DNA from: an uncultured Fodinibius sp.
GTDB lineage: Bacteria > Bacteroidota > Rhodothermia > Balneolales > Balneolaceae
Length of the DNA: 64,000 nucleotides
Assembly (NCBI GenBank): GCA_913056235.1
Contig: CAJXMW010000001.1
Location: 434,001-498,000, forward strand
Direction: 5' to 3'
Shown here in pieces: positions 7,623 through 53,777 of this stretch (position 1 is its first letter; each line of letters starts with the position of its first letter). A model generated the notes under the pieces. That model was not told the origin of the DNA, did no database searches, and worked only from the letters and a program-made list of their open reading frames with translations. Position numbers and translations under genes: made by a program.

Positions 7623-7696
7623 GCGCCCGTAGCTCAATTGGATAGAGCGTCAGATTTCGGATCTGAAAGTTGTGGGTTCGAGTCCTACCGGGCGTA
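7623..7696 (+). tRNA. tRNA-Arg (anticodon TCG), copy A
   Basis: A 74-base cloverleaf: acceptor GCGCCCG/CGGGCGT, D arm GCTC...GAGC, anticodon stem TCAGA/TCTGA with loop TTTCGGA (anticodon TCG at 7657-7659), T arm GTGGG-TTCGAGT-CCTAC, discriminator A, CCA not encoded. It differs from copies B and C in the anticodon stem and T stem. A terminator follows within 10 bases. Confidence 0.93.
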
Positions 7697-7955: not shown

Positions 7956-8426
7956 ATGCAACAAATTCAATCCACATATAAGAAAAGCCTAAAGGGCATC
8001 ACCTTTGCCCTTCTTTTCCTGTTTGGACTACATTTTCTTAGTATTCACGGATTTGTTGACAGCCTCGTCTATTGCTTTGAGGAAGATGGCCAAATCAATA
8101 TCGAATCAGAAGTTGGTTCCATCTTCACCATCCCTTCGGAAGATGTCATTCATGCCGAATACCAGCATGATCATGAAGAACCTACTTTTGATGCTGCAGA
8201 AGATAGCCATCATGATGTGTCACTATCTTTGATTTGTTCAAAGGAACAGCAAACAACGCGCTTCGATCAGGAACGCACGCTCAACTTTCTTGAAGGAATT
8301 TTATACAGCAATGTTGAAAATCTCCCGCAATCACGGGTTTTTCAACTTGTTTCTTATACCCCTCCCTTAATTGAGGATACGATAACAGCTTCGCTCAAAA
8401 CGGTTGTCCGCATTCTCTACAACTAA
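7956..8426 (+). CDS. His-rich membrane/periplasmic leader protein of efflux operon
   Basis: 156 residues if started at the ATG at 7956; a TTG further upstream would fall in the repeat arm. An N-terminal transmembrane or signal segment (about 12-30) is followed by an exported acidic region with His-rich stretches (YQHDHEE, DSHHD). Such proteins commonly precede CzcCBA-type genes in Bacteroidota-like operons and may bind the exported metal in the periplasm. The gene precedes the CzcC-like gene by 118 bases in the same direction. The protein encoded at 38763-39197 plays the same positional role in module 2. Function inferred from context. Confidence 0.65.
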   Translation: MQQIQSTYKKSLKGITFALLFLFGLHFLSIHGFVDSLVYCFEEDGQINIESEVGSIFTIPSEDVIHAEYQHDHEEPTFDAAEDSHHDVSLSLICSKEQQTTRFDQERTLNFLEGILYSNVENLPQSRVFQLVSYTPPLIEDTITASLKTVVRILYN

Positions 8427-23945: not shown

Positions 23946-24086
23946 ACAGGCCAGTCAGACAGACCAGTGGCAATACTTGCAAGAAGGGGCGCTTGGAATA
24001 GGATGAAAGTGCGCATTTTTGCTCTTTGGTTTTACTCAGTCAGACATACCAGCCAGAGTTGTGATCTAATCTGGTATATACTATAA

Positions 24087-24160
24087 GCGCCCGTAGCTCA
24101 ATTGGATAGAGCGTTTGGCTTCGGACCAAAAGGTTGGGAGTTCGAGTCTTCCCGGGCGTA
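24087..24160 (+). tRNA. tRNA-Arg (anticodon TCG), copy B
   Basis: A 74-base tRNA with acceptor GCGCCCG/CGGGCGT, anticodon stem TTTGG/CCAAA, loop CTTCGGA (anticodon 24121-24123), T arm GGGAG-TTCGAGT-CTTCC, and A discriminator. It is identical in sequence to copy C by inspection. The anticodon arm contains the attachment core. Confidence 0.93.
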
Positions 24161-24167
24161 CTCAAGT

Positions 24168-24200
24168 AAAGTGCCCGTCATTTTTAGGCGGGCACTTTTT
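24168..24200 (+). terminator. Terminator of tRNA-Arg B
   Basis: AAAGTGCCCG pairs with CGGGCACTTT, with an 11-base loop and a following T run. Confidence 0.8.
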
Positions 24201-39544: not shown

Positions 39545-39685
39545 ACAGGCCGGTCAGACAGACCAGTGGCAATACTTGCAATAAGGGGCGCTTGGAATGG
39601 GATGATAGTGCGCATTTTTGTTCTTTGGTTTTACTCAGTCAGACATATTAGCCAGAGTTGTGATCTAATCTTGTATATACTATAA

Positions 39686-39759
39686 GCGCCCGTAGCTCAA
39701 TTGGATAGAGCGTTTGGCTTCGGACCAAAAGGTTGGGAGTTCGAGTCTTCCCGGGCGTA
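39686..39759 (+). tRNA. tRNA-Arg (anticodon TCG), copy C
   Basis: 74 bases, same anticodon stem TTTGG/CCAAA, loop CTTCGGA (anticodon 39720-39722) and T arm as copy B; CCA not encoded. Confidence 0.93.
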
Positions 39760-39766
39760 CTCAAGT

Positions 39767-39798
39767 AAAGTGCCCGTCATTTCTTGGCGGGCACTTCT
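39767..39798 (+). terminator. Terminator of tRNA-Arg C
   Basis: AAAGTGCCCG pairs with CGGGCACTT (one mismatch at the end); homologous to the terminator after copy B. Confidence 0.7.
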
Positions 39799-42125: not shown

Positions 42126-42533
42126 TTATTTATTATACGTCACGACTCGCTTCCAATGCATCCCAACAAATAATGCCACAGCAGATACTTCAAGGAGTCT
42201 TCCAATCACGGCCAGTGGCAGTGATGAATCCGTAAAGCGGTCTGCAATGACTACAACAATCCCGACATTTAATAAAAACACCATTGATCGGGCCAGCTTG
42301 GTATTACCGCGGGACGATCCTTTCAAATAGCGAGGTAAAATCCAGTATGCCGTTCCCATCGTAAACTGTACAATCCAGCCAATAACTAACAGCTCTATAT
42401 GGACAGGTAGAAGAACCCAAATAGCCGGATGCAAAGGATAGGCTTTATGCACCAGCATCAATGCTCCGATAACTATTCCTATAAAAAGACATATATACGA
42501 AGAGCGAATGAACCAGCGACTTGGGACAGGCAT
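42126..42533 (-). CDS. NnrS/CcoN-like four-helix membrane protein
   Basis: 135 residues starting at MPVPSRWF, one base after the preceding gene's stop; four transmembrane segments. A His in AIWVLLPVHIELLVIGWIV and a final GMHWKR are the only conserved-looking polar membrane residues. The same plan is seen in the gene encoded immediately upstream, suggesting a haem-binding or NnrS-related pair. Function unknown; positioned at the end of the NO/respiration operon. Confidence 0.55.
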   Translation of the reverse strand: MPVPSRWFIRSSYICLFIGIVIGALMLVHKAYPLHPAIWVLLPVHIELLVIGWIVQFTMGTAYWILPRYLKGSSRGNTKLARSMVFLLNVGIVVVIADRFTDSSLPLAVIGRLLEVSAVALFVGMHWKRVVTYNK

Positions 42534-42534
42534 A

Positions 42535-42981
42535 CTACTGTTTGTTTCGCTTTTTCTTGCGTTTACGGCGGCGCTGTTCTTTGGACATGATGCGTGGCCA
42601 CATTTCAATGAGATACGTTATCCCACCGGTCACTTGTAGTACGGCAGAGCTTAGGACTAACACATTCCAAAAAGCTAATTCGGAGTACGGTAACATCGGT
42701 TCGGCCACCAGGCGAAGTACCAGCCCAGCATTCAAAAATATATAGGTAAGCCACCCCCACAGTTGAGCCCTAAACCCTTCCTCTTTATTCCGGCCCGGAA
42801 ACATCCACATCGACACACCAAAAATAATCTGGGTAATCCAGCCAACCATCAGCGTGTGCCAGAACAACGGCATCAACACCGGCAGACTAAGCGATTCGAT
42901 TTCCACTGCGATCCCCAGCAACAGAGATACCAGGAAAAAGCCCATTCCCGTTTTAATGAAAGCTCGCGTAATTCGTGGCAT
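42535..42981 (-). CDS. NnrS/CcoN-like four-helix membrane protein
   Basis: 148 residues with four transmembrane segments, FWHTLMVGWITQIIFGVSMWMFPG containing a membrane His, and a very basic C-terminal tail (RRRKRKKKRNKQ, 12 residues). Paralogous to the protein encoded after it by spacing of segments and His position. Possibly a haem or NO-related membrane factor, but no specific family claimed. Confidence 0.55.
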   Translation of the reverse strand: MPRITRAFIKTGMGFFLVSLLLGIAVEIESLSLPVLMPLFWHTLMVGWITQIIFGVSMWMFPGRNKEEGFRAQLWGWLTYIFLNAGLVLRLVAEPMLPYSELAFWNVLVLSSAVLQVTGGITYLIEMWPRIMSKEQRRRKRKKKRNKQ

Positions 42982-44246: not shown

Positions 44247-44615
44247 TTAAATTAATCCATCTTTTTCCATTCGAAGTTCAAACGAGGAAGCGATATTTCG
44301 AGCCAGCTGTTTCGCTAACTTTGCTTTTGCACCCTCATAAAGTTCATCTACTGTGTCCTCAAATAACCGGTACCATCGATCGAAATCACCCTCCTTTATA
44401 GGAAGCGGCATGTGCTTCCTGAAAGGACGACCCTCGTAACGATCTGTTTGAAAAAGCAGATATGACCAGAAGTCAACCATTTTGGGCAAATGCACATCCC
44501 AATCCACATTAGCTACATCATTGAAAATATATCCAAGGCGTTCATCTCTCTGAACCTTTTCATAGAAATTGTGAACAAGCACTTCCACATCCTGATCGGT
44601 CCGAATATCATTCAT
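44247..44615 (-). CDS. Group III truncated haemoglobin
   Basis: A 122-residue globin of the 2-over-2 class with group III features: VHNFYEKVQRDERLGYIFND, then FWSYLLFQTDRYEGRPFRKHMPLP, where the proximal His region (FRKHMP) and Tyr/Trp distal residues are visible, and RWYRLFEDTVDELYEG. Group III proteins bind O2 and NO and are usually linked to NO handling; here the neighbours are RIC and azurin genes. Full length for the class. Confidence 0.85.
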   Translation of the reverse strand: MNDIRTDQDVEVLVHNFYEKVQRDERLGYIFNDVANVDWDVHLPKMVDFWSYLLFQTDRYEGRPFRKHMPLPIKEGDFDRWYRLFEDTVDELYEGAKAKLAKQLARNIASSFELRMEKDGLI

Positions 44616-44632: not shown

Positions 44633-45361
44633 CTAATTCAGAGATTGTTCCAGCTCAATTGCTTTTGGAAACAGGATATTGTTTTCCAGGTGTACATGTT
44701 TATGCAGATCTTTTTCAAAAGCCTCCAAGTTTTCAAACAGCAGGCGATAGGTCGTGCAAGCATCTTCCGGGGGCGTAAAATCGTCGCTTAGTTCTCTAAT
44801 CTCTTTCATGGCCGCACCAGATTGATCATGCTCATGCTCCATCATAGAAATGGGATTGGCTGCTTTGCCAAAATCAGGCGTATCAGGCTGTTCACCATTC
44901 TTATCTGCTTCAACAAGTCGTTTCACGTACGGAAACAGAAGCTCTTCTTCTTTATCCAGGTGATTAATTATTTCTCCATGAAGCATCGTAAACTCATAGT
45001 ATATATCCTTCAGTTCAGGATGTAGGTTGCCATGTACACCGGCAACCTTCTTCGCATACTGACCTATTTCAGGCAATTTTTGCCTTGAAAACTTATGGTG
45101 ATTTTTTATGATATAATCTATCAGAAAGTCCAGTGACCATTCCGTATAGTTATCTTTTCTTGCTCCGACTGTTTCTAATTCCTTCAAGGCCTGCCACACT
45201 TCGTTGGGATCGATATTGGTTTCTTGGCATGCTTCATCCACGGTACGATCACCGCCACAGCAAAAATCTATATCAAACCTACCAAATACCTTTGCTGCTT
45301 GATAATTATCCGCAACTATCTGACCAATGGTTCGAGCTTTTTCTTTTTGCATAGCCTTCAC
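44633..45361 (-). CDS. ric: Iron-sulfur cluster repair protein RIC (ScdA/YtfE)
   Basis: 242 residues: the N-terminal DUF542 domain with vicinal cysteines C34-C35 (DFCCGG), then a hemerythrin-like di-iron domain with His and Glu ligands (NHHKFSRQ, MLHGEIINHLDKEEELLFPYVK, MMEHEHDQS, HVHLENNILFPK). RIC proteins repair Fe-S clusters damaged by nitrosative or oxidative stress. The azurin gene precedes it in the operon. All expected ligands appear present. Confidence 0.92.
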   Translation of the reverse strand: MKAMQKEKARTIGQIVADNYQAAKVFGRFDIDFCCGGDRTVDEACQETNIDPNEVWQALKELETVGARKDNYTEWSLDFLIDYIIKNHHKFSRQKLPEIGQYAKKVAGVHGNLHPELKDIYYEFTMLHGEIINHLDKEEELLFPYVKRLVEADKNGEQPDTPDFGKAANPISMMEHEHDQSGAAMKEIRELSDDFTPPEDACTTYRLLFENLEAFEKDLHKHVHLENNILFPKAIELEQSLN

Positions 45362-45440: not shown

Positions 45441-46013
45441 CTATTCAACATTTAGTGTGCCTTCCATACCCGCTGCATAATGTCCGGGAAACGAACATAG
45501 AAATGGATAATCACCCGTTTTCTCCGGTACCGTGAAGGCCACTTCAACGGTTTCCCCGCCAACTGCTAACTCGCTATGTGCTATGATTTGATCAGTCATA
45601 TCAGATGGTATATAGTCATTACCTTTCGCTTGCGAGGCGGCTTGGGCAAAAGCATCCACATCTGCCGAGAGCATCAGCAGTATAAAATTGTGAGCCATAG
45701 CTGAAGCCGGCAGCTGACTTTGGGTTGTCAGTTGAATTCGGATTTTTTCTCCGGGTTCAGCCGATATCGTTTCCAGCTCAAGCATACCATCGTTGCCAAC
45801 CGTAGCACCAGTTCTAATGCCCTGCTGGCTTTCGTCTTCCACAACGTACTTCATCTGATCAATACCGATAATATTGATCGTACGTACATCGGATGATTGA
45901 CTTGTAGCCGTTTGCGTATCGGTACTACTTTGGGTTTGATCTTGGCTGTCAGAACCGCCTCCGCAAGCAGTAACAAATAATAGAACAAGAGGAAGTATAT
46001 AAAAATAACGCAT
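45441..46013 (-). CDS. Azurin/auracyanin-like blue-copper lipoprotein
   Basis: 190 residues, lipobox TAC17, a Gln/Ser/Thr linker, then a cupredoxin domain with type-1 copper ligands: His in AMAHNF and Cys-x-x-x-x-His-x-x-x-x-Met in FLCSFPGHYAAGM. It is a periplasmic electron carrier, able to feed cbb3 oxidase or nitrite/NO reductases. It precedes the RIC gene in the same direction, 79 bases apart with a hairpin. Confidence 0.88.
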   Translation of the reverse strand: MRYFYILPLVLLFVTACGGGSDSQDQTQSSTDTQTATSQSSDVRTINIIGIDQMKYVVEDESQQGIRTGATVGNDGMLELETISAEPGEKIRIQLTTQSQLPASAMAHNFILLMLSADVDAFAQAASQAKGNDYIPSDMTDQIIAHSELAVGGETVEVAFTVPEKTGDYPFLCSFPGHYAAGMEGTLNVE

Positions 46014-46055: not shown

Positions 46056-46481
46056 TTATAATAGTGTCGCATCAAGGCTGATGTCAGTCCCAGCTAACGC
46101 TTGAGAAACCGGGCACCCTTCTTTCGCGCCCTCAGCAAATTTTTGGAATGTACCGTTGTCGATATCAGGCACGTTTGCCTCTGTTATAAGTTTTATCCCA
46201 GTAATTGCCGGACCACCATCGATGACCTCAAAAGTCACTTCCGCTTGGGTGTCGATCGATTCGGGATCGTACCCTGCTTCGGACAATTCCAGCGATAACG
46301 CCATGGAAAAGCAACCGGCATGTGCAGCACCGATGAGCTCTTCGGGATTGGTACCTTCGCCATTCTCAAATCGAGAGGCAAAGGTATAGGCGCCCTCGTA
46401 CGAGCCACTATCCATTTTCATCGTTCCGTTTCCATTTTTTAAATCTCCATTCCATGTTGCATTTGCGTTAGTTGTAGGCAT
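46056..46481 (-). CDS. OsmC-family peroxidase
   Basis: 141 residues with the OsmC fold: NPEELIGAAHAGCFSMALSLEL contains the first reactive Cys, and GCPVSQAL the second, the pair that reduces organic hydroperoxides. Full length. It lies in the leftward respiration operon. Confidence 0.88.
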   Translation of the reverse strand: MPTTNANATWNGDLKNGNGTMKMDSGSYEGAYTFASRFENGEGTNPEELIGAAHAGCFSMALSLELSEAGYDPESIDTQAEVTFEVIDGGPAITGIKLITEANVPDIDNGTFQKFAEGAKEGCPVSQALAGTDISLDATLL

Positions 46482-46534: not shown

Positions 46535-47368
46535 CTAGTTTGAACTTCCTTTTGCTCGCACTTTTTGCACCTCCTCAGCTGTTACAGTGGGAGCATCATT
46601 ACCCCAGCTTGTACGTTCGTGATTAATAATGGCCGCCACCTCCTCATCAGAGAGTTGTTCCGAAAAGGGCGGCATCGCGGCCGAATACTCTACCCCGTCA
46701 ATAGCCTTTCCCTGCATCCCAAACAAGACAATTTCAATGTGGCGCGTCGGATCTTCAGCTGTTACCACTGGGTCATCTGATAGCGGTGGAAATGCCCCGG
46801 GAACGCCTTCCCCATTCCCCTGATGACAACTGGCACAGCTCGTGCGATATAAGGTTGCTCCAATATTTGCTTTGGAGGTCGGTGGTACCTGTCCGGCAGA
46901 TTGTGCATTATCACCTTTACCCGTAAAAAAGCTGTAGGTCGGTGAGCTCGCATATTCGTCCGGCACATTCCACTGCTGGGCAATGTAGAATGCGCTCCAA
47001 GCTACGACTATCAAAAGCAGAACCCATGCCCAGGTTGGTACGGGAGCCGGAGTTTCGGCCCGGGATGGCTCCCAAAATGGCTCTTTGGCTCCGCCATAGG
47101 CATTTAACAGAATGGGGACTTTCCCTTCCAGCATATCATTATCTTGCAATCCTTCAACATCAATACCGGGCCCATTTCTTACCTCAAAGGGAATAGTTCG
47201 GACTCCTTTGTGACCGCTGGCATCGGTAGCGACCACTTTCAGTTTATGTGGCCCGTCCTCCAGTTGCGTTGTATCCAATTCAAAACGGACGGGAGGGCGA
47301 TACGAGACAATGGGCTCGTCCTCATCATCCAGATATACATGGATTAAATTACTGTTGTCTTCAGACAT
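46535..47368 (-). CDS. Membrane-bound c-type cytochrome with N-terminal Ig-like domain
   Basis: 277 residues in three parts: an N-terminal ~95-residue Ig-like beta domain (cytosolic or periplasmic side not certain), a transmembrane helix at about 112-130 (VPTWAWVLLLIVVAW), and a C-terminal cytochrome c domain with CASCH and a Met ligand region (YSAAMPPF). The last ~75 residues are almost the same as the C-terminal domain of the CcoO-like protein encoded at 47607, showing a recent duplication. It serves as the CcoP-like subunit by position. Confidence 0.82.
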   Translation of the reverse strand: MSEDNSNLIHVYLDDEDEPIVSYRPPVRFELDTTQLEDGPHKLKVVATDASGHKGVRTIPFEVRNGPGIDVEGLQDNDMLEGKVPILLNAYGGAKEPFWEPSRAETPAPVPTWAWVLLLIVVAWSAFYIAQQWNVPDEYASSPTYSFFTGKGDNAQSAGQVPPTSKANIGATLYRTSCASCHQGNGEGVPGAFPPLSDDPVVTAEDPTRHIEIVLFGMQGKAIDGVEYSAAMPPFSEQLSDEEVAAIINHERTSWGNDAPTVTAEEVQKVRAKGSSN

Positions 47369-47379
47369 TATGCTCGTTG

Positions 47380-47604
47380 TTAAGATTCGTCTTTTAAAAT
47401 CTTCCGTTTAATATGACTTTCGGATTTTTCTCCTGGCCAGAGGAACCACTTGATCGTAAAAAACACCACGGCCAAAACAATGATCGATGATCCTACAAGC
47501 ACCAGGTAATAGAGTGCACCCTCGGGCGGGGCATATTCTCTTCCTTCGCTGGAAGTGGAGAACTCCGAGACTTGCTGTATAAATGTTAAAAAGTACAATA
47601 ACAT
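47380..47604 (-). CDS. Small oxidase-associated membrane protein, CcoQ/CcoH-like
   Basis: 74 residues, one transmembrane segment (ALYYLVLVGSSIIVLAVVFF, 20 residues) with a short basic tail. It sits between the two cytochrome genes, where CcoQ or CcoH-type subunits are found. Sequence alone cannot distinguish these. Confidence 0.6.
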   Translation of the reverse strand: MLLYFLTFIQQVSEFSTSSEGREYAPPEGALYYLVLVGSSIIVLAVVFFTIKWFLWPGEKSESHIKRKILKDES

Positions 47605-47606
47605 GG

Positions 47607-48620
47607 TTATTCTTCTGCTTGGATTTTATTTAGCTCATCATTGTTGCGGACTTTCGCCACATCTTCTGGCGTGACAGTGGGAGCATCATTACCCCAGCTG
47701 GTCCGTTCGTGATTGATAACCGCAGCCACTTCTTCGTCGGATAATGATTCCCCAAATGGCTGCATAATACCTTGATACTCCGTTCCCGCAATGGTCTTCC
47801 CTTGCAACCCGTATAGCACCACTCGAATATGATCAGTAGCATCTTCAGCCGTTACTACCGGATCACCTGCCATAGCAGGAAATACCCCTTGTACTCCCTG
47901 GCCATCACTTTGGTGACAAGAGGCACAGTTGTTAGCATAAATAGTTGCTCCATTTATTTTCTTTTTAGCCGCTTGTGCTGCAACAGAATCAGCCTTTGCT
48001 TGCTGGGCAGCTGTTGGCTTCGCATCCATCGGCACCTGTTTAAGGGATTTCAAATAGGCGACCAGGGCCTTTGCCTTTTTGGTTGGAACTATTTTTCCGT
48101 TGGAAGGTCCATATTCTCCAGGAATGGACACTACGGTCGCATCCTTAGGTGGGTTTTCCACAACCTGAAACAGCCATGGGTAGGAGGGCATAATCGATTC
48201 TTTTACGACCGATCGTGGATTGTAAAGGTGCATATAATGCCAAACCGAACTGGGCTGTCGCTTACCGATATTAGTTAGATCAGGTCCGGTTCGCTCGCTT
48301 CCCAACACGGCAGGCGTCTGTCGCCAGACACTGGGTCTGTTTATGCGTGCATAATCACCGGGCGCCGAGGGACGTCCCCAGTTTTCATCCATTGTAATAG
48401 GACGCACTTGCTGTGTGTGACAGTAAACACAGCCTTCATTGATAAACACCTTCATCCCTTTGCGTTCCAGTTCAGTCATCGGTTCACTGGCAGGTAATGG
48501 CTCATTTTCTTGCTGGACCCAAAGTGCTGGGAATACCGCAATTATCAGACTGAGAAAAATAAATCCCCAGAATACTACGCCAAAAAGCAGCTTATGATTT
48601 TTATGAAAATTAAGCTTCAT
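47607..48620 (-). CDS. ccoO: CcoO-like monohaem cytochrome fused to a second cytochrome c
   Basis: 337 residues. The N-terminal part matches CcoO: a membrane anchor (about 12-30), CVYCHTQQVRP haem motif, RTGPDLTNIG, and HLYNPRSVVKESIMPSYPW with the Met ligand. After a Lys/Ala linker (~205-220) a second cytochrome c domain follows (CASCH, MQPF), so it is a dihaem fusion rather than the usual ~200-residue CcoO. The extra domain duplicates the C-terminus of the neighbouring cytochrome protein. It lies 15 bases downstream of ccoN. Confidence 0.88.
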   Translation of the reverse strand: MKLNFHKNHKLLFGVVFWGFIFLSLIIAVFPALWVQQENEPLPASEPMTELERKGMKVFINEGCVYCHTQQVRPITMDENWGRPSAPGDYARINRPSVWRQTPAVLGSERTGPDLTNIGKRQPSSVWHYMHLYNPRSVVKESIMPSYPWLFQVVENPPKDATVVSIPGEYGPSNGKIVPTKKAKALVAYLKSLKQVPMDAKPTAAQQAKADSVAAQAAKKKINGATIYANNCASCHQSDGQGVQGVFPAMAGDPVVTAEDATDHIRVVLYGLQGKTIAGTEYQGIMQPFGESLSDEEVAAVINHERTSWGNDAPTVTPEDVAKVRNNDELNKIQAEE

Positions 48621-48635
48621 AATGGATCAAATATT

Positions 48636-50069
48636 TTATGCGTTTACGGATTCAGCTTTGGTCATTTTATCTGTGGTAGGACGCATTTTCCAGACGTTAT
48701 ACCCGAAAATAAGGTGTGATATAAACATCATAGTGCCCCCTACGGCTCTCCAAACCCAGTAAGGTGTCATCAAAGTAACCGACTCAATAAATGACTCCCC
48801 TGCTATCCAACTTAACCCCTGCAGGGTGCCGCCAATCATCAGGGGAATGCTATAAACCAGCACGCCAATCAATGCCAGCCAAAAATGTGCCCCTACGGCA
48901 AACTGTGGTGGCTCATTACCCGTCATTCTTGGGATTAATCCATAAATTCCACCCCATACCAAGAATGAGACAAATCCATACATGCTCATGTGCGAATGGG
49001 CAATAGTATAGTTGGTAAAGTGCCACACTTTGTTGAGAGAACGGAATGCTTCCAGCGTCCCCTGATATGAAACAATGGCGTAGAAAATTACACCAACCAG
49101 GATAAATGGCAGTGAGTAGCTTCGTGCAATAGTACGCCACTTACCACGCATGGTCAGCAAAAAGTTTCCCGTACCAGCCGTAACCGGTACTATCATTCCA
49201 ACACTAAAGACAATGGCGACAGTCTGGATCCACCAAGGGATAGGACTAAACACAAAGTGGTGCGAACCAATCATGGTATAGAACACCATCTGCGTCCAAA
49301 AGGCAAGAACACCCAGCGAATATGAATAAATGGGCCTGTTTAACAGTTTGGGTAAGAAGTAGTATGTAAGACCTAGTACCATGGGAGTAAACCACTGCCC
49401 CACGCCTTGGTGCATATAATAGCCCTGAATAACCGTTTGGCTGATCCCATCCTGCTGATAGCCTGGCAGGTAAGCAACCAACACAAGGATAATAGTCCAT
49501 AAACAGGCTGCCAGGATATACCAGTTGGAGATATAAATTTCTTTTACATTACGATCAGCAATCGTTTTATACAGGTTATAGGCAATTAGCATGAGGCCAA
49601 ATGCAAAGAATGCAAATACAGGCCAGACAAATTCACGATACTCTTGCGCGCCGTTATTAATACCGGCCATCAGGCTAATGACCCCAATTACGACAGAGAG
49701 ATTCATGAGAACCAAGCTCGTCCAACCTAGCCGATAACTGAATAGCTCCCGTTGACTGGTACGCGGCACGACATATAAAGCCAGTGCTAACATGCCTTGA
49801 GACAAAAATCCCCAGAACACTACGTTCGTATGAACGGGGCGCAGGCGTCCGAACGATAACCAGGAAATGGTATCAAGTTCCGGCCACACAAATTTAAGCC
49901 CCAGATACTCACCAACGAGCGTTCCAAACACCAGCCAAAAAGCTGAACAGGCGATAAACGAAAATATCAGTCTGACAGAATTTGGAGACGTTTCGATACG
50001 CTCTTCAGCTTTCGCCTTTTCAACCGTTAATGGACGTTCTACAGAACGTACAGCAGAAGGTTTATTCAT
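48636..50069 (-). CDS. ccoN: cbb3-type haem-copper oxidase catalytic subunit
   Basis: 477 residues, ~12 transmembrane segments. Low-spin haem ligands include His80 (GRLRPVHTN). CuB ligands are His220 (YYMHQGVGQ), His270 and His271 (GSHH). Tyr264 lies six residues before His270, the position of the cross-linked catalytic Tyr in CcoN. This Tyr argues for an oxygen reductase rather than NorB, which lacks it. A haem ligand region AHSHMSMYG follows. It pumps or consumes protons while reducing O2 at low tension. Overlaps the NnrS-like gene by four bases. Confidence 0.87.
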   Translation of the reverse strand: MNKPSAVRSVERPLTVEKAKAEERIETSPNSVRLIFSFIACSAFWLVFGTLVGEYLGLKFVWPELDTISWLSFGRLRPVHTNVVFWGFLSQGMLALALYVVPRTSQRELFSYRLGWTSLVLMNLSVVIGVISLMAGINNGAQEYREFVWPVFAFFAFGLMLIAYNLYKTIADRNVKEIYISNWYILAACLWTIILVLVAYLPGYQQDGISQTVIQGYYMHQGVGQWFTPMVLGLTYYFLPKLLNRPIYSYSLGVLAFWTQMVFYTMIGSHHFVFSPIPWWIQTVAIVFSVGMIVPVTAGTGNFLLTMRGKWRTIARSYSLPFILVGVIFYAIVSYQGTLEAFRSLNKVWHFTNYTIAHSHMSMYGFVSFLVWGGIYGLIPRMTGNEPPQFAVGAHFWLALIGVLVYSIPLMIGGTLQGLSWIAGESFIESVTLMTPYWVWRAVGGTMMFISHLIFGYNVWKMRPTTDKMTKAESVNA

Positions 50070-51208
50070 AATCTCGAACTATTATCATCAACAGATTTAA
50101 CATTTCGATTGTGTAACTCCTTCTTTTTTTCATATGCATCGCTGATTAACTGGGAGAGTACTCCTACCAGAAAGAGAAGAATGGCCAACACATTACCATG
50201 GCTACCTATAGTTCTCACAAGCGGAGATAGCAGCAAGTCGCCCAATACTCGAACCATTAGAAAGCCGTGTAATAGAATCAGGGGTAGATAAAAGTAACTA
50301 TGCCAAGGCACCATTTTACCTGATAAAGAAGGAATAATGACAGAAGCGTGAGCAAATATCATACTGAACACAAACCCAACAAATATCATATGTAACAATC
50401 CGTCATATAACGGACCTGCTGTAGGAAATCCATACCAGAGACCGAATAGACCTGCTAGAATTAGCCACCCATAACCTGTAAGCAGAGAAATAGCACTATA
50501 ACGGGTCCATTCTACCGATTTAATTGTGCGACGAGCCACATCATACTGTATTAGCCATCCAGCTACTCCGATTAGAAATAATGAAGCAATGCCCCACCCA
50601 ATCATCCGATTAAAATGAGTAATGGTTAACGCTAAAATCCATCCAAGAATGAGTCCGGCAAAAATTCGTTGCGCTTGTTTGGGCGGACGCATGATACGGT
50701 TCAGTTCAAGTCGTTCTCCAAAGATGGTAAGCATTGGGAAAGCTGCCCACCAGCCAACGAGCGTGTAGATTGGAAATCCAAACACATAAAACAGGTTGCC
50801 AACTAATAATGCTCCAGCTCCCAAGGCCATAATCAAGTGATAGATTTTAGGCTGCAGGTAGTACAGAAAACCCATGACCGTGGTGAGCCCGATCGAACCT
50901 AATATGAGGCTCCACTCTCCCGGTATTTGCAAACCGGTTAACAGGAATACAGTTGAAACCGCCATAAAAACAGGACCAATAAATGCCCATTTTTTATCAA
51001 GAGCAGCTGCTCGTTCCAATCCAATGAGAGTCCCCAAAAAACCATTAATCATAAGTGGCCCATGAGCTAAGGGAGAAACTGAATGTTTTACGTCTGATAA
51101 AAATCCTAATCTGATTAACCCAGCATACAGTCCTGTTAGCAACCCAATTGCAGCCAGAAACAACAGTCCCACTAACACATATGTTGGAACTTTTACATCA
51201 GTATTCAT
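50066..51208 (-). CDS. NnrS-family membrane protein
   Basis: 380 residues, 11-12 hydrophobic segments, with NnrS-like features: HGPLMINGFLGTLIGLERAAAL early and LLHMIFVGFVFSMIFAHASVIIP late, each with His in the membrane. NnrS is a haem- and copper-containing protein linked to NO resistance. It directly precedes ccoN with a four-base overlap, tying NO tolerance to oxidase expression. Confidence 0.8.
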   Translation of the reverse strand: MNTDVKVPTYVLVGLLFLAAIGLLTGLYAGLIRLGFLSDVKHSVSPLAHGPLMINGFLGTLIGLERAAALDKKWAFIGPVFMAVSTVFLLTGLQIPGEWSLILGSIGLTTVMGFLYYLQPKIYHLIMALGAGALLVGNLFYVFGFPIYTLVGWWAAFPMLTIFGERLELNRIMRPPKQAQRIFAGLILGWILALTITHFNRMIGWGIASLFLIGVAGWLIQYDVARRTIKSVEWTRYSAISLLTGYGWLILAGLFGLWYGFPTAGPLYDGLLHMIFVGFVFSMIFAHASVIIPSLSGKMVPWHSYFYLPLILLHGFLMVRVLGDLLLSPLVRTIGSHGNVLAILLFLVGVLSQLISDAYEKKKELHNRNVKSVDDNSSRL

Positions 51209-52368: not shown

Positions 52369-53121
52369 ATGAGTAATAATGAGTCACTAAAAGGTATGAC
52401 ACCCGACGCTACAATAGGAGAAATCGTAAGTGTTGAAAAAAACGCTGGAGCATTGCTTTCCTCTATTGGCTTGTCCCATGAAAGTCACAAAGCCAAAACC
52501 CTGCGATCAGTATGCCAGCAAAAGCAATGGAGCGAAGTGGAAGTCATGAAATGGCTCAAGAAGAATCAAGAGAATAATGGCGTACAAAAAAGTATAAAGA
52601 ATGAGGAAAAACTGCCTGACCTGGGAGATAACTTACTGAAGTGGTGCGAGTACCTAGAACAAGATTTTCTGACAAAAAATACTGAGCTACTGGATGACAT
52701 TAACCGTGATTTCCCACGCGTCCACAAAATACATGGTAATCAATACGAGTGGCTTAAAAATATGCAGTGGTACCTTGACAAACTGGAAGAGAAGTTAAAC
52801 TACTACTTTTATTTCCAGCGTAACAAGCTATTTCCTCTTCTTAATGAATTGGAGGATTCAAAGAAGAAGGTTTTACATGGGACTATAACAAAGATTAATA
52901 ATGGACTTAAAATTATTGAAGAAGACCAAAATAAAATTTTAGATTTAATCGACACTACCGAAAAGAAAGGCCAAGGATTAGAAAACCCGGAAGGTGCATG
53001 TTCGACGCTCCGTATTCTTAATTACAATGTTAAAACATTATTTTCTTCGTTGAGAAAACAGATAGAACTTGAACGGCAACACATTATCCCACTGGTAAAA
53101 CAAAAATTAGCATCGGGATAG
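52369..53121 (+). CDS. RIC-like hemerythrin-fold protein lacking key residues
   Basis: 250 residues. The N-terminal ~60 residues resemble the DUF542 domain of RIC, but the CC motif is missing (GLSHESHKAKTLRS aligns with DFCCGGDRT). The C-terminal half is all-helical like the hemerythrin domain but shows few His/Glu ligand pairs. It is divergent from fdxA. It may be a regulator or inactivated paralogue of the full-length RIC encoded at 44633. The assignment rests on pattern and neighbours. Confidence 0.55.
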   Translation: MSNNESLKGMTPDATIGEIVSVEKNAGALLSSIGLSHESHKAKTLRSVCQQKQWSEVEVMKWLKKNQENNGVQKSIKNEEKLPDLGDNLLKWCEYLEQDFLTKNTELLDDINRDFPRVHKIHGNQYEWLKNMQWYLDKLEEKLNYYFYFQRNKLFPLLNELEDSKKKVLHGTITKINNGLKIIEEDQNKILDLIDTTEKKGQGLENPEGACSTLRILNYNVKTLFSSLRKQIELERQHIIPLVKQKLASG

Positions 53122-53150: not shown

Positions 53151-53777
53151 ATGTTCACAGGATCAAAAAAACAACTGCTTGAGCTTATTAAGAGAAAAGG
53201 GACCATCTCGATTGACGAGGCGGTTGAAAATACCGATTTAGCGAAGACAACCCTTCGCGAACATTTTCTGCAATTAGAACGAGATGGATATATCCAACGC
53301 GATTATGTACGCTCCGGACCGGGACGGCCAAGCCTTGAATACCAACTGACCCAAAAAGGAAACAACCTATTCCCTTCCTATGAGTCAGCCCTCATAAAGG
53401 AATTACTTAATTTTCTAAAATCAAAAGATGATGAAGAAACGATAAAAGAGTTTTTCAAATCTTTTTGGGAAGATCGAGTTGAAAAAGCCCGACACCGCAT
53501 GGATCAATCCTCAGAAACAGACTTTGAGACCCGGATTGAATCGTTAACGCACATGTTAGAAGAAGAAGGATTCATGCCTGAATTTAACATAGACAAAGAA
53601 AATGATACGCTTTCCATCAAAGAATGCAACTGCCCATTCAGCGAAGTTGTAAAAGAAACCCAACTCCCTTGCGAGCTAGAAGCTATGTTTTTTAAAGAAT
53701 TGTTCAATGAAGATGCTGAACGCACCAGCCATATCGCGGAAGGAGATTTTTCATGCACGTATGATATACCAATATAG
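53151..53777 (+). CDS. SufR-like Fe-S-sensing transcriptional regulator
   Basis: 208 residues: an N-terminal winged helix (AVENTDLAKTTLREHFLQLERDGYI, shortened) of DeoR/ArsR type and a C-terminal domain with ECNCPF, a further Cys (PCELEAMFF) and FSCTYDI, the Cys pattern of SufR/COG2345 regulators that bind an Fe-S cluster. It would report on Fe-S status and control the neighbouring operons. It follows the RIC-like gene by 29 bases. Confidence 0.82.
   Translation: MFTGSKKQLLELIKRKGTISIDEAVENTDLAKTTLREHFLQLERDGYIQRDYVRSGPGRPSLEYQLTQKGNNLFPSYESALIKELLNFLKSKDDEETIKEFFKSFWEDRVEKARHRMDQSSETDFETRIESLTHMLEEEGFMPEFNIDKENDTLSIKECNCPFSEVVKETQLPCELEAMFFKELFNEDAERTSHIAEGDFSCTYDIPI

Follow-up and report, generated by a model that had tools for sequence, protein, structure and literature searches.

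Only cbb3-type enzymes are reported among the C-family haem-copper oxidases in the sections of PMC8780969 drawn on here, and the same sections describe the reduction of nitric oxide (NO) to nitrous oxide (N2O) by the cbb3 oxidase of P. stutzeri. The textbook enzyme combines a mono-haem CcoO with a di-haem CcoP (PMC8267372, in the part used), and an active-centre Glu is called mandatory for authentic cbb3 in the excerpted text of PMC5492636. The window analysed here, a 64,000-nucleotide (nt) stretch of DNA from an uncultured, salt-loving Fodinibius sp. (contig CAJXMW010000001.1, positions 434,001 to 498,000), carries an oxidase operon that differs from this description in its subunits and in one active-site residue. 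We found that it belongs to a divergent branch of C-family (cbb3-like) oxidases, here called Group I, and consider it probable, though well short of certain, that the enzyme stands in an NO and Fe-S-repair setting and serves low-oxygen, NO-exposed life, possibly also reducing NO. The set is a variant within the known cbb3 kind and not a new kind of enzyme. The operon comprises the following features, with lengths in amino acids (aa); Ig stands for immunoglobulin, TM for transmembrane and ORF for open reading frame:

48636-50069, minus strand: catalytic subunit resembling CcoN, 477 aa, from the Group I branch of the C-family haem-copper oxidases
47607-48620, minus strand: fusion of ccoO with a cytochrome c at its C terminus, 337 aa, with CxxCH motifs at residues 64 and 232
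47646-47978, minus strand: the additional cytochrome c domain at the C terminus of that fusion, approximately residues 215-325
47380-47604, minus strand: short ORF of 74 aa with a single helix and a PGExxxxHIK signature, lying between the two cytochrome genes
46535-47368, minus strand: CcoP-like subunit with a probable Ig-like N-terminal domain, one TM helix and cytochrome c, 277 aa
46973-47056, minus strand: Glu105 and TM helix (about residues 105-132) of that subunit, matching the CcoP N-terminal helix
46550-46870, minus strand: cytochrome c domain of the CcoP-like subunit, about residues 167-273, a copy of the CcoO domain

The range assigned by a first-pass annotation, 47607-50069, takes in CcoN and CcoO and omits the second cytochrome gene; that reading also passed over the conserved one-helix ORF at 47380-47604, the nitric oxide setting and the Glu-to-Gln change in CcoN.

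The alignment bears out the earlier claim that CcoN keeps the catalytic Tyr264 and all CuB His: Tyr264, His220, His270 and His271 at the CuB positions and the conserved His80, His358 and His360 are all present, the ligand roles being assigned by alignment to solved cbb3 chains. His220, His270, His271, His358, His360 and Tyr264 were invariant in 75 of 75 CcoN rows, which represent 40 Group I, 23 Group II (a second side branch) and 12 canonical sequences; rows shorter than 380 aa were omitted, so that 23 of the 27 Group II rows were kept. Position 336, which aligns with Glu323 of P. stutzeri CcoN, is Gln in all 63 Group I and Group II rows and Glu in all 12 canonical rows. The window CcoN thus has the three CuB His of cbb3 and its catalytic Tyr on a separate helix and lacks, through Gln336, the Glu regarded as mandatory. 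Gly224 is invariant in the Group I and II alignment, and aligned NorB rows carry Glu there. The predicted model of the window CcoN (mean predicted local distance difference test score, pLDDT, of 86) superposed on cbb3 3mk7 with a Z of 50.0 and a root mean square deviation (rmsd) of 1.7 over 439 aligned residues, the next fold match being the NO reductase (NOR) 4xyd (Z 44.3, rmsd 2.3, 427 aligned). Against the TIGR00780 ccoN model the protein scores 281 bits and does not reach the cut-off of 583.15. Because Tyr264 and the His residues are kept, Glu is replaced by Gln336, Gly224 occupies the place of the NorB Glu and the fold is closer to cbb3, the Group I site looks like that of an O2 reductase minus one carboxylate. 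CcoN exceeds 550 aa in 32 of the 39 Group I loci (e.g. L071:7620-9425), owing to an N-terminal extension with a further predicted helix that is absent from the shorter Fodinibius version.

The loci come from a scan of named genomes that gave 69 cases, sorted into Group I and Group II by CcoN identity; three in which no CcoN ORF was chosen (L084, L118 and L126) were dropped, leaving 39 Group I and 27 Group II loci. Group I CcoN proteins are 53-94% identical to that of the window and belong to Bacteroidota of many genera, to Fodinibius and Gracilimonas, and to two metagenome-assembled genomes (MAGs) labelled proteobacterium and Polyangiaceae. Those of Group II, 32-38% identical, come from other Balneolales, Verrucomicrobia, Opitutales, Bdellovibrionales, Chloroherpetonaceae, Chlorobiales and, as a MAG, Lysobacterales. 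Within Fodinibius the set was present in 5 of 12 genomes, the window's own included. In a CcoN tree with cNOR and qNOR as outgroup (93 rows thinned to 67; three Group I proteins picked up by the NorB query were taken out), three separate clades emerged, Group I, Group II and canonical cbb3, with Shimodaira-Hasegawa-like approximate likelihood ratio supports of 100, 99 and 99, and the window CcoN fell with the oxidases and not with NorB. One MAG (contigs CAJXPB010000003 and CAJXPB010000006; L066 and L109) holds both Group I and Group II oxidases. Separately, five Bacteroidota NorB-like proteins of about 445-495 aa (L143, L144, L146, L149 and L150) lack the helix VI His of the metal site and form one clade beside cNOR and qNOR.

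The genomic surroundings point to NO and to Fe-S cluster repair. Downstream of the window operon, with no change of strand, lie genes for OsmC, an azurin-like protein, RIC and a truncated haemoglobin, and the wider neighbourhood reads as follows:

46056-46481, minus strand: OsmC-family peroxiredoxin gene, the next one downstream, same strand
45441-46013, minus strand: azurin/plastocyanin-like protein, candidate periplasmic electron carrier
44633-45361, minus strand: RIC (ScdA/YtfE) Fe-S cluster repair protein, TIGR03652 over cut-off
44247-44615, minus strand: truncated haemoglobin, Bac_globin over cut-off
50066-51208, minus strand: membrane protein with several spans, immediately upstream of ccoN, matched by no Pfam or NCBIfam model
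52369-53121, plus strand: divergent RIC-like protein on the opposite strand, below cut-off
53151-53777, plus strand: SufR-like (Fe-S type) transcriptional regulator, below cut-off

The membrane protein at 50066-51208 may be NnrS-like, a label with no family match behind it. Across the 39 Group I loci, a truncated haemoglobin gene directly follows the gene of the Ig-like and TM protein (Ig-TM protein) on the same strand in 16, all in Bacteroidota, and an Rrf2 regulator lies upstream of ccoN in 23. Neighbours within 6 kb were counted at loci with at least 3 kb upstream and at least 4 kb downstream. Among the 35 such loci of Group I we found a truncated haemoglobin in 16, RIC in 10, Rrf2 in 21 and a P-type ATPase in none; at the 12 of Group II the corresponding numbers were 0, 0, 0 and 12. 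No CcoI/CcoS-type genes were found within 6 kb of Group I loci.

It is arguable, if in our judgement unlikely, that Group I is an unrecognised C-family NO reductase serving Bacteroidota that possess nir and nosZ and no known nor. Such genomes, having nir and nosZ without nor, make up 9% of the Bacteroidota with denitrification genes and are left open in the portion of PMC12569097 considered here. The window's own genome has NirK over cut-off and NosZ, no match to the NorB query at E 1e-10, and three other large haem-copper oxidases that all carry the oxidase Tyr; haemoglobin and RIC genes accompany the operon. Among the 40 Group I genomes, 29 have NosZ at E 1e-20 (28 of them above the cut-off), 18 have NirK above its cut-off and 10, by our reading of the NorB matches, have cNOR or qNOR. 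The active site argues against this account, with Tyr264 kept and the invariant Gly224 at the NorB Glu position, and so does the distribution in a phylum sample of 392 genomes (Group I in 15, NosZ in 135, NirK in 69, cNOR or qNOR in 52). The latter class is our own sorting, 15 cNOR by an identity of at least 40% and 37 qNOR by a long frame; NOR status was not given to the remaining NorB matches (119 genomes in total), mostly proteins of 440-550 aa with some 26% identity. When Fodinibius is set aside, Group I is associated with NosZ (8 of 10 genomes versus 118 of 372, P = 0.003), is not tied to NirK (2 of 10 versus 60 of 372) and leans towards the presence of cNOR or qNOR (4 of 10 versus 48 of 372, P = 0.034). 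NirK and NosZ without cNOR or qNOR were found together in 21 of the 392 genomes, of which 4, all Fodinibius, have Group I. Three Fodinibius genomes (G006, G007 and G008) have NirK and NosZ with neither Group I nor a NorB match, and a further one, G004, has Group I plus an eNOR-like gene. A search for eNOR that covered 13 genomes identified such haem-copper oxidases, with Gln at the catalytic Tyr (GHMSQQ), in Fodinibius G004 and G010 (L194:17521-19248 and L196:3118-4845, both on the minus strand), the Gln being the criterion given in the consulted part of PMC8756737. The idea of a missing NOR is weakened by the phylum sample, by G006, G007 and G008 and by the eNOR-like gene of G004. As the co-occurrence pattern follows NosZ, and not NirK or the absence of NOR, Group I is tied to N2O-reducing bacteria and is not shown to be a stand-in for NOR; co-occurrence does not favour replacement. 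The fullest form of the idea, a line of NO reductases within the C family that keeps Tyr, changes Glu to Gln, has a new subunit set with a cytoplasmic Ig-like domain and explains part of the nir-plus-nosZ Bacteroidota without known nor, we regard as decidedly improbable.

We hold it to be unlikely, too, that the window encodes an ordinary high-affinity cbb3 oxidase whose shuffled subunits and NO-related neighbours have no special meaning. The O2-reductase residues and the cbb3 fold speak for it, as does the number of haem c groups, three in the window set, equal to the textbook cbb3 total. Opposed to this are the ccoN score of 281 bits against a cut-off of 583, the invariant Gln, the conserved subunits peculiar to the set, the truncated haemoglobin directly downstream in 16 of 39 loci and the presence of a canonical cbb3 in the same genome. 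This second enzyme is a CcoNO fusion that scores 631.6 bits against the ccoN model, over the cut-off of 583, in an operon with CcoS and CcoG over their cut-offs and a copper-type P-ATPase. The first-pass annotation had proposed a search for a conventional CcoP elsewhere, a standard operon in the genome speaking against its own view; such an operon was largely found, with two reservations. Its CcoP-like protein reaches only 102 bits against TIGR00782 (cut-off 180) and has one haem motif, and the CcoO part of the fusion is frameshifted in this assembly relative to a relative's sequence (L061, about 8056-8065), either as a real change or through an assembly error. The genome also has an A-type oxidase and a ba3-like oxidase, which like the canonical cbb3 carry the oxidase Tyr as read from the sequence.

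Beyond the catalytic subunit, the earlier description of a non-standard subunit set is supported, there being no di-haem CcoP in the window operon. The extra C-terminal cytochrome c that had been noted on CcoO was recovered by Pfam, which places FixO at residues 9-153 and Cytochrom_C at 223-304, around the second CxxCH at residue 232. Two CxxCH motifs are found in CcoO at 38 of the 39 Group I loci (the exception being L097). At 16 of the 27 Group II loci CcoO could be identified, each time with a single motif. A cytochrome c fused to CcoO is standard in Group I and not a peculiarity of the window. The second cytochrome gene (46535-47368) has a single CxxCH, at residue 178, and its haem domain closely resembles the CcoO tail. 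The near-repetition reported earlier, including long identical DNA, is confirmed: 119 nt match at 76% in register (46557-46675 versus 47647-47765), codon alignment of the two domains gives identity at 70 of 110 residues and at 216 of 330 nt, and the longest identical run of 26 nt compares with at most 20 nt in 100 synonymous-codon shuffles. A tree built from 72 cytochrome c domains over 114 columns unites the six Ig-linked domains in one clade, which nests inside the Group I CcoO-cytochrome clade (support 97/91) and has as neighbours the CcoO domains from these same organisms (93/76, a branch that is not starred). The haem domain on the CcoP-like subunit is copied from CcoO in the Fodinibius-Gracilimonas lineage, and a single copy event predating the split of the two is the simplest account. 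Misassembly can yield adjacent repeats, but an assembly artefact or a decaying duplicate is next to inconceivable here, as the same architecture occurs in five Fodinibius genomes (the window's own included) and one Gracilimonas MAG, the relatives are 79-96% identical to the window protein with haem motifs intact, and the two copies in the window differ at 114 of 330 nt.

The second cytochrome protein itself appears to be related to CcoP. Of the 39 Group I loci, 31 have an Ig-TM protein without a CxxCH and 4 (L064, L065, L078 and L098, from Fodinibius and Gracilimonas) have one with it; at the other 4 (L082, L092, L094 and L097) no Ig-TM protein was found. The CcoP-like subunit of Group II was identified at 18 loci, always with one CxxCH. 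All 28 members of the Ig-TM family have both Glu105 and Pro111, spaced like Glu21 and Pro27 in canonical CcoP (6 of 6), the Glu standing six residues before the Pro. The invariant Glu of the CcoP helix is the proton entrance of cbb3. The Ig-TM profile matched the helix of the Group II CcoP-like subunit with an hhalign value of 92% (score 48.1); 12 decoy CcoN helices gave at most 4.7% (score at most 19.0) and CcoO 0.4% (15.2). Column-shuffled controls gave at most 0.4%, but the decoy helices are the better control because column shuffling destroys the hydrophobic pattern. Pfam FixP_N matches 15 of the 28 members weakly (best E 0.0099). The Ig-TM protein appears to be CcoP's own transmembrane helix with an Ig-like domain at its N terminus. 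Replacement of CcoP by an Ig protein was accordingly rejected, given the CcoP remnant that the helix match and the decoy controls indicate. Of the earlier proposals, that of an Ig-like protein standing in place of CcoP fails, since the helix itself matches CcoP and the protein is without haem in 31 of 35 loci. That of duplicated haem domains replacing CcoP holds in so far as the operon has no di-haem CcoP, and not beyond this, the CcoP helix persisting, the CcoO fusion being the Group I norm and the copy being lineage-specific. Attachment of haem requires a periplasmic cytochrome c end, and with that orientation the Ig-like domain would be cytoplasmic. The small ORF at 47380-47604 gave no family match in family model searches, and similar small ORFs are present in the other Group I loci compared. 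In Bacteroidota loci (L068:10645-10944, L071, L083, L090 and L091), the small ORF ahead of the Ig-TM gene opens with a signal-like segment and contains a CxxC motif; the Fodinibius version has neither.

Several results weigh against our reading of the locus. No truncated haemoglobin was seen at 19 of the 35 Group I loci; an Rrf2 gene also lies upstream of this genome's canonical cbb3 operon and is therefore unspecific, leaving only haemoglobin and RIC as distinctive; the nearest regulator in the window is SufR-like; and the neighbour counts are not independent because the loci share ancestry. The CcoN tree does not settle the branching order among Group I, Group II and canonical cbb3. The match of the Ig-TM profile to canonical CcoP alone is weak (hhalign 26.7%, score 31.2), and so is the Ig signal, with Big_7 matching 6 of 28 members (best E 0.0011) and Big_13 3 of 28, both counted at E up to 1. 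The model of the Ig region has strands at moderate confidence over residues 9-63 and pLDDT below 50 over residues 74-101, and its best Z, to beta-sandwich chains, is an ambiguous 6.2. Foldseek with this model returned no match at E of 0.001 or below, and comparison of the Ig-TM profile with solved structures gave no relative (best E 0.37). The Ig-like N-terminal domain described by the first-pass annotation is thus probable and unproven, the window protein itself having no Ig family match in Pfam.

On the basis of the gene order, residues, trees, fusions and domain copy, we infer a possible function and electron path. Electrons would come from a donor in the periplasm, perhaps a soluble cytochrome c, perhaps the azurin-like protein encoded at 45441-46013, and enter the cytochrome c domains of the CcoO tail and the CcoP-like subunit. 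From there they may pass to CcoO's own haem c, then to haem b and finally to the haem b3-CuB-Tyr264 site. O2, at low concentration and in cells that encounter NO, is the likely substrate, and NO reduction is plausible as a second activity. The domain history would have begun with a haem domain at the end of CcoO, CcoP surviving as a TM helix with an N-terminal Ig-like domain and usually no haem; in Fodinibius and Gracilimonas one copy of the CcoO haem domain would then have been joined onto the CcoP-like subunit. How the subunits of a respiratory complex can be reshuffled is clearly illustrated by the haem domain carried on CcoO, the CcoP remnant without haem and the copied domain in Fodinibius. 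Two well-supported side branches of the C family share an invariant Gln where canonical CcoN has Glu, and Groups I and II are therefore natural variants for asking what that Glu does. In Bacteroidota that reduce N2O, the Group I operon, continuing into genes for haemoglobin and Fe-S repair, is a concrete candidate for the way such cells respire when NO is present. It also bears on the nir-plus-nosZ genomes without nor of PMC12569097 (as described in the portion considered), for which the co-occurrence counts do not show an answer.

Two other regions of the window drew attention. Identical 110-nt direct repeats at 24074-24183 and 39673-39782, each including a tRNA-Arg gene, enclose some 15.6 kb that carry genes for metal efflux (a P-type ATPase and RND pumps) and look like an integrated element; a third tRNA-Arg at 7623 differs from the repeat copies. 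Two adjoining small membrane proteins at 42126-42608 and 42535-42981 (minus strand) show weak COX1 matches below cut-off, and the genome has a second such pair at another place (L063), close to a further truncated haemoglobin.

Our literature search, which covered open-licence full texts, recognised no publication describing this subunit set; the 'Unknown group' of Muntyan et al. 2015, cited in the part of PMC5492636 used, is a possible counterpart of Group I or Group II. Compared with the C-family CcoNOQP enzyme, e.g. P. stutzeri 3mk7, the window set is alike in the CcoN fold, the His and Tyr positions, a haem c subunit CcoO and a CcoP-type helix with Glu six residues before Pro. It differs in missing the ccoN cut-off, in the change of Glu323 to Gln, in the second haem c on CcoO and in a CcoP-like subunit with a probable Ig-like domain and one haem (none in most relatives). 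Where textbook cbb3 has a mono-haem CcoO and a di-haem CcoP, the window CcoO has two CxxCH and the CcoP-like subunit one, although the di-haem CcoP is not a strict feature, because the canonical CcoP of this genome also has a single CxxCH. The PRK14486 model of NCBI (putative bifunctional cbb3 subunit II/cytochrome c) shows a like join of CcoO to cytochrome c, aligned over residues 9-305, yet the window CcoO scores only 144 bits against its cut-off of 447. The cNOR and qNOR enzymes belong to the same superfamily, from which the window CcoN is set apart by Tyr, by the absence of the helix VI Glu and by a separate clade. Group II shares with the window set the Gln at the Glu323 position, CcoO and a helix-plus-Glu CcoP-like subunit; it differs in a CcoO with a single haem motif, in a CcoP-like subunit with one cytochrome c and no Ig-like domain, and in its neighbours, a P-type ATPase being nearby in 12 of 12 loci and truncated haemoglobin and RIC in none.

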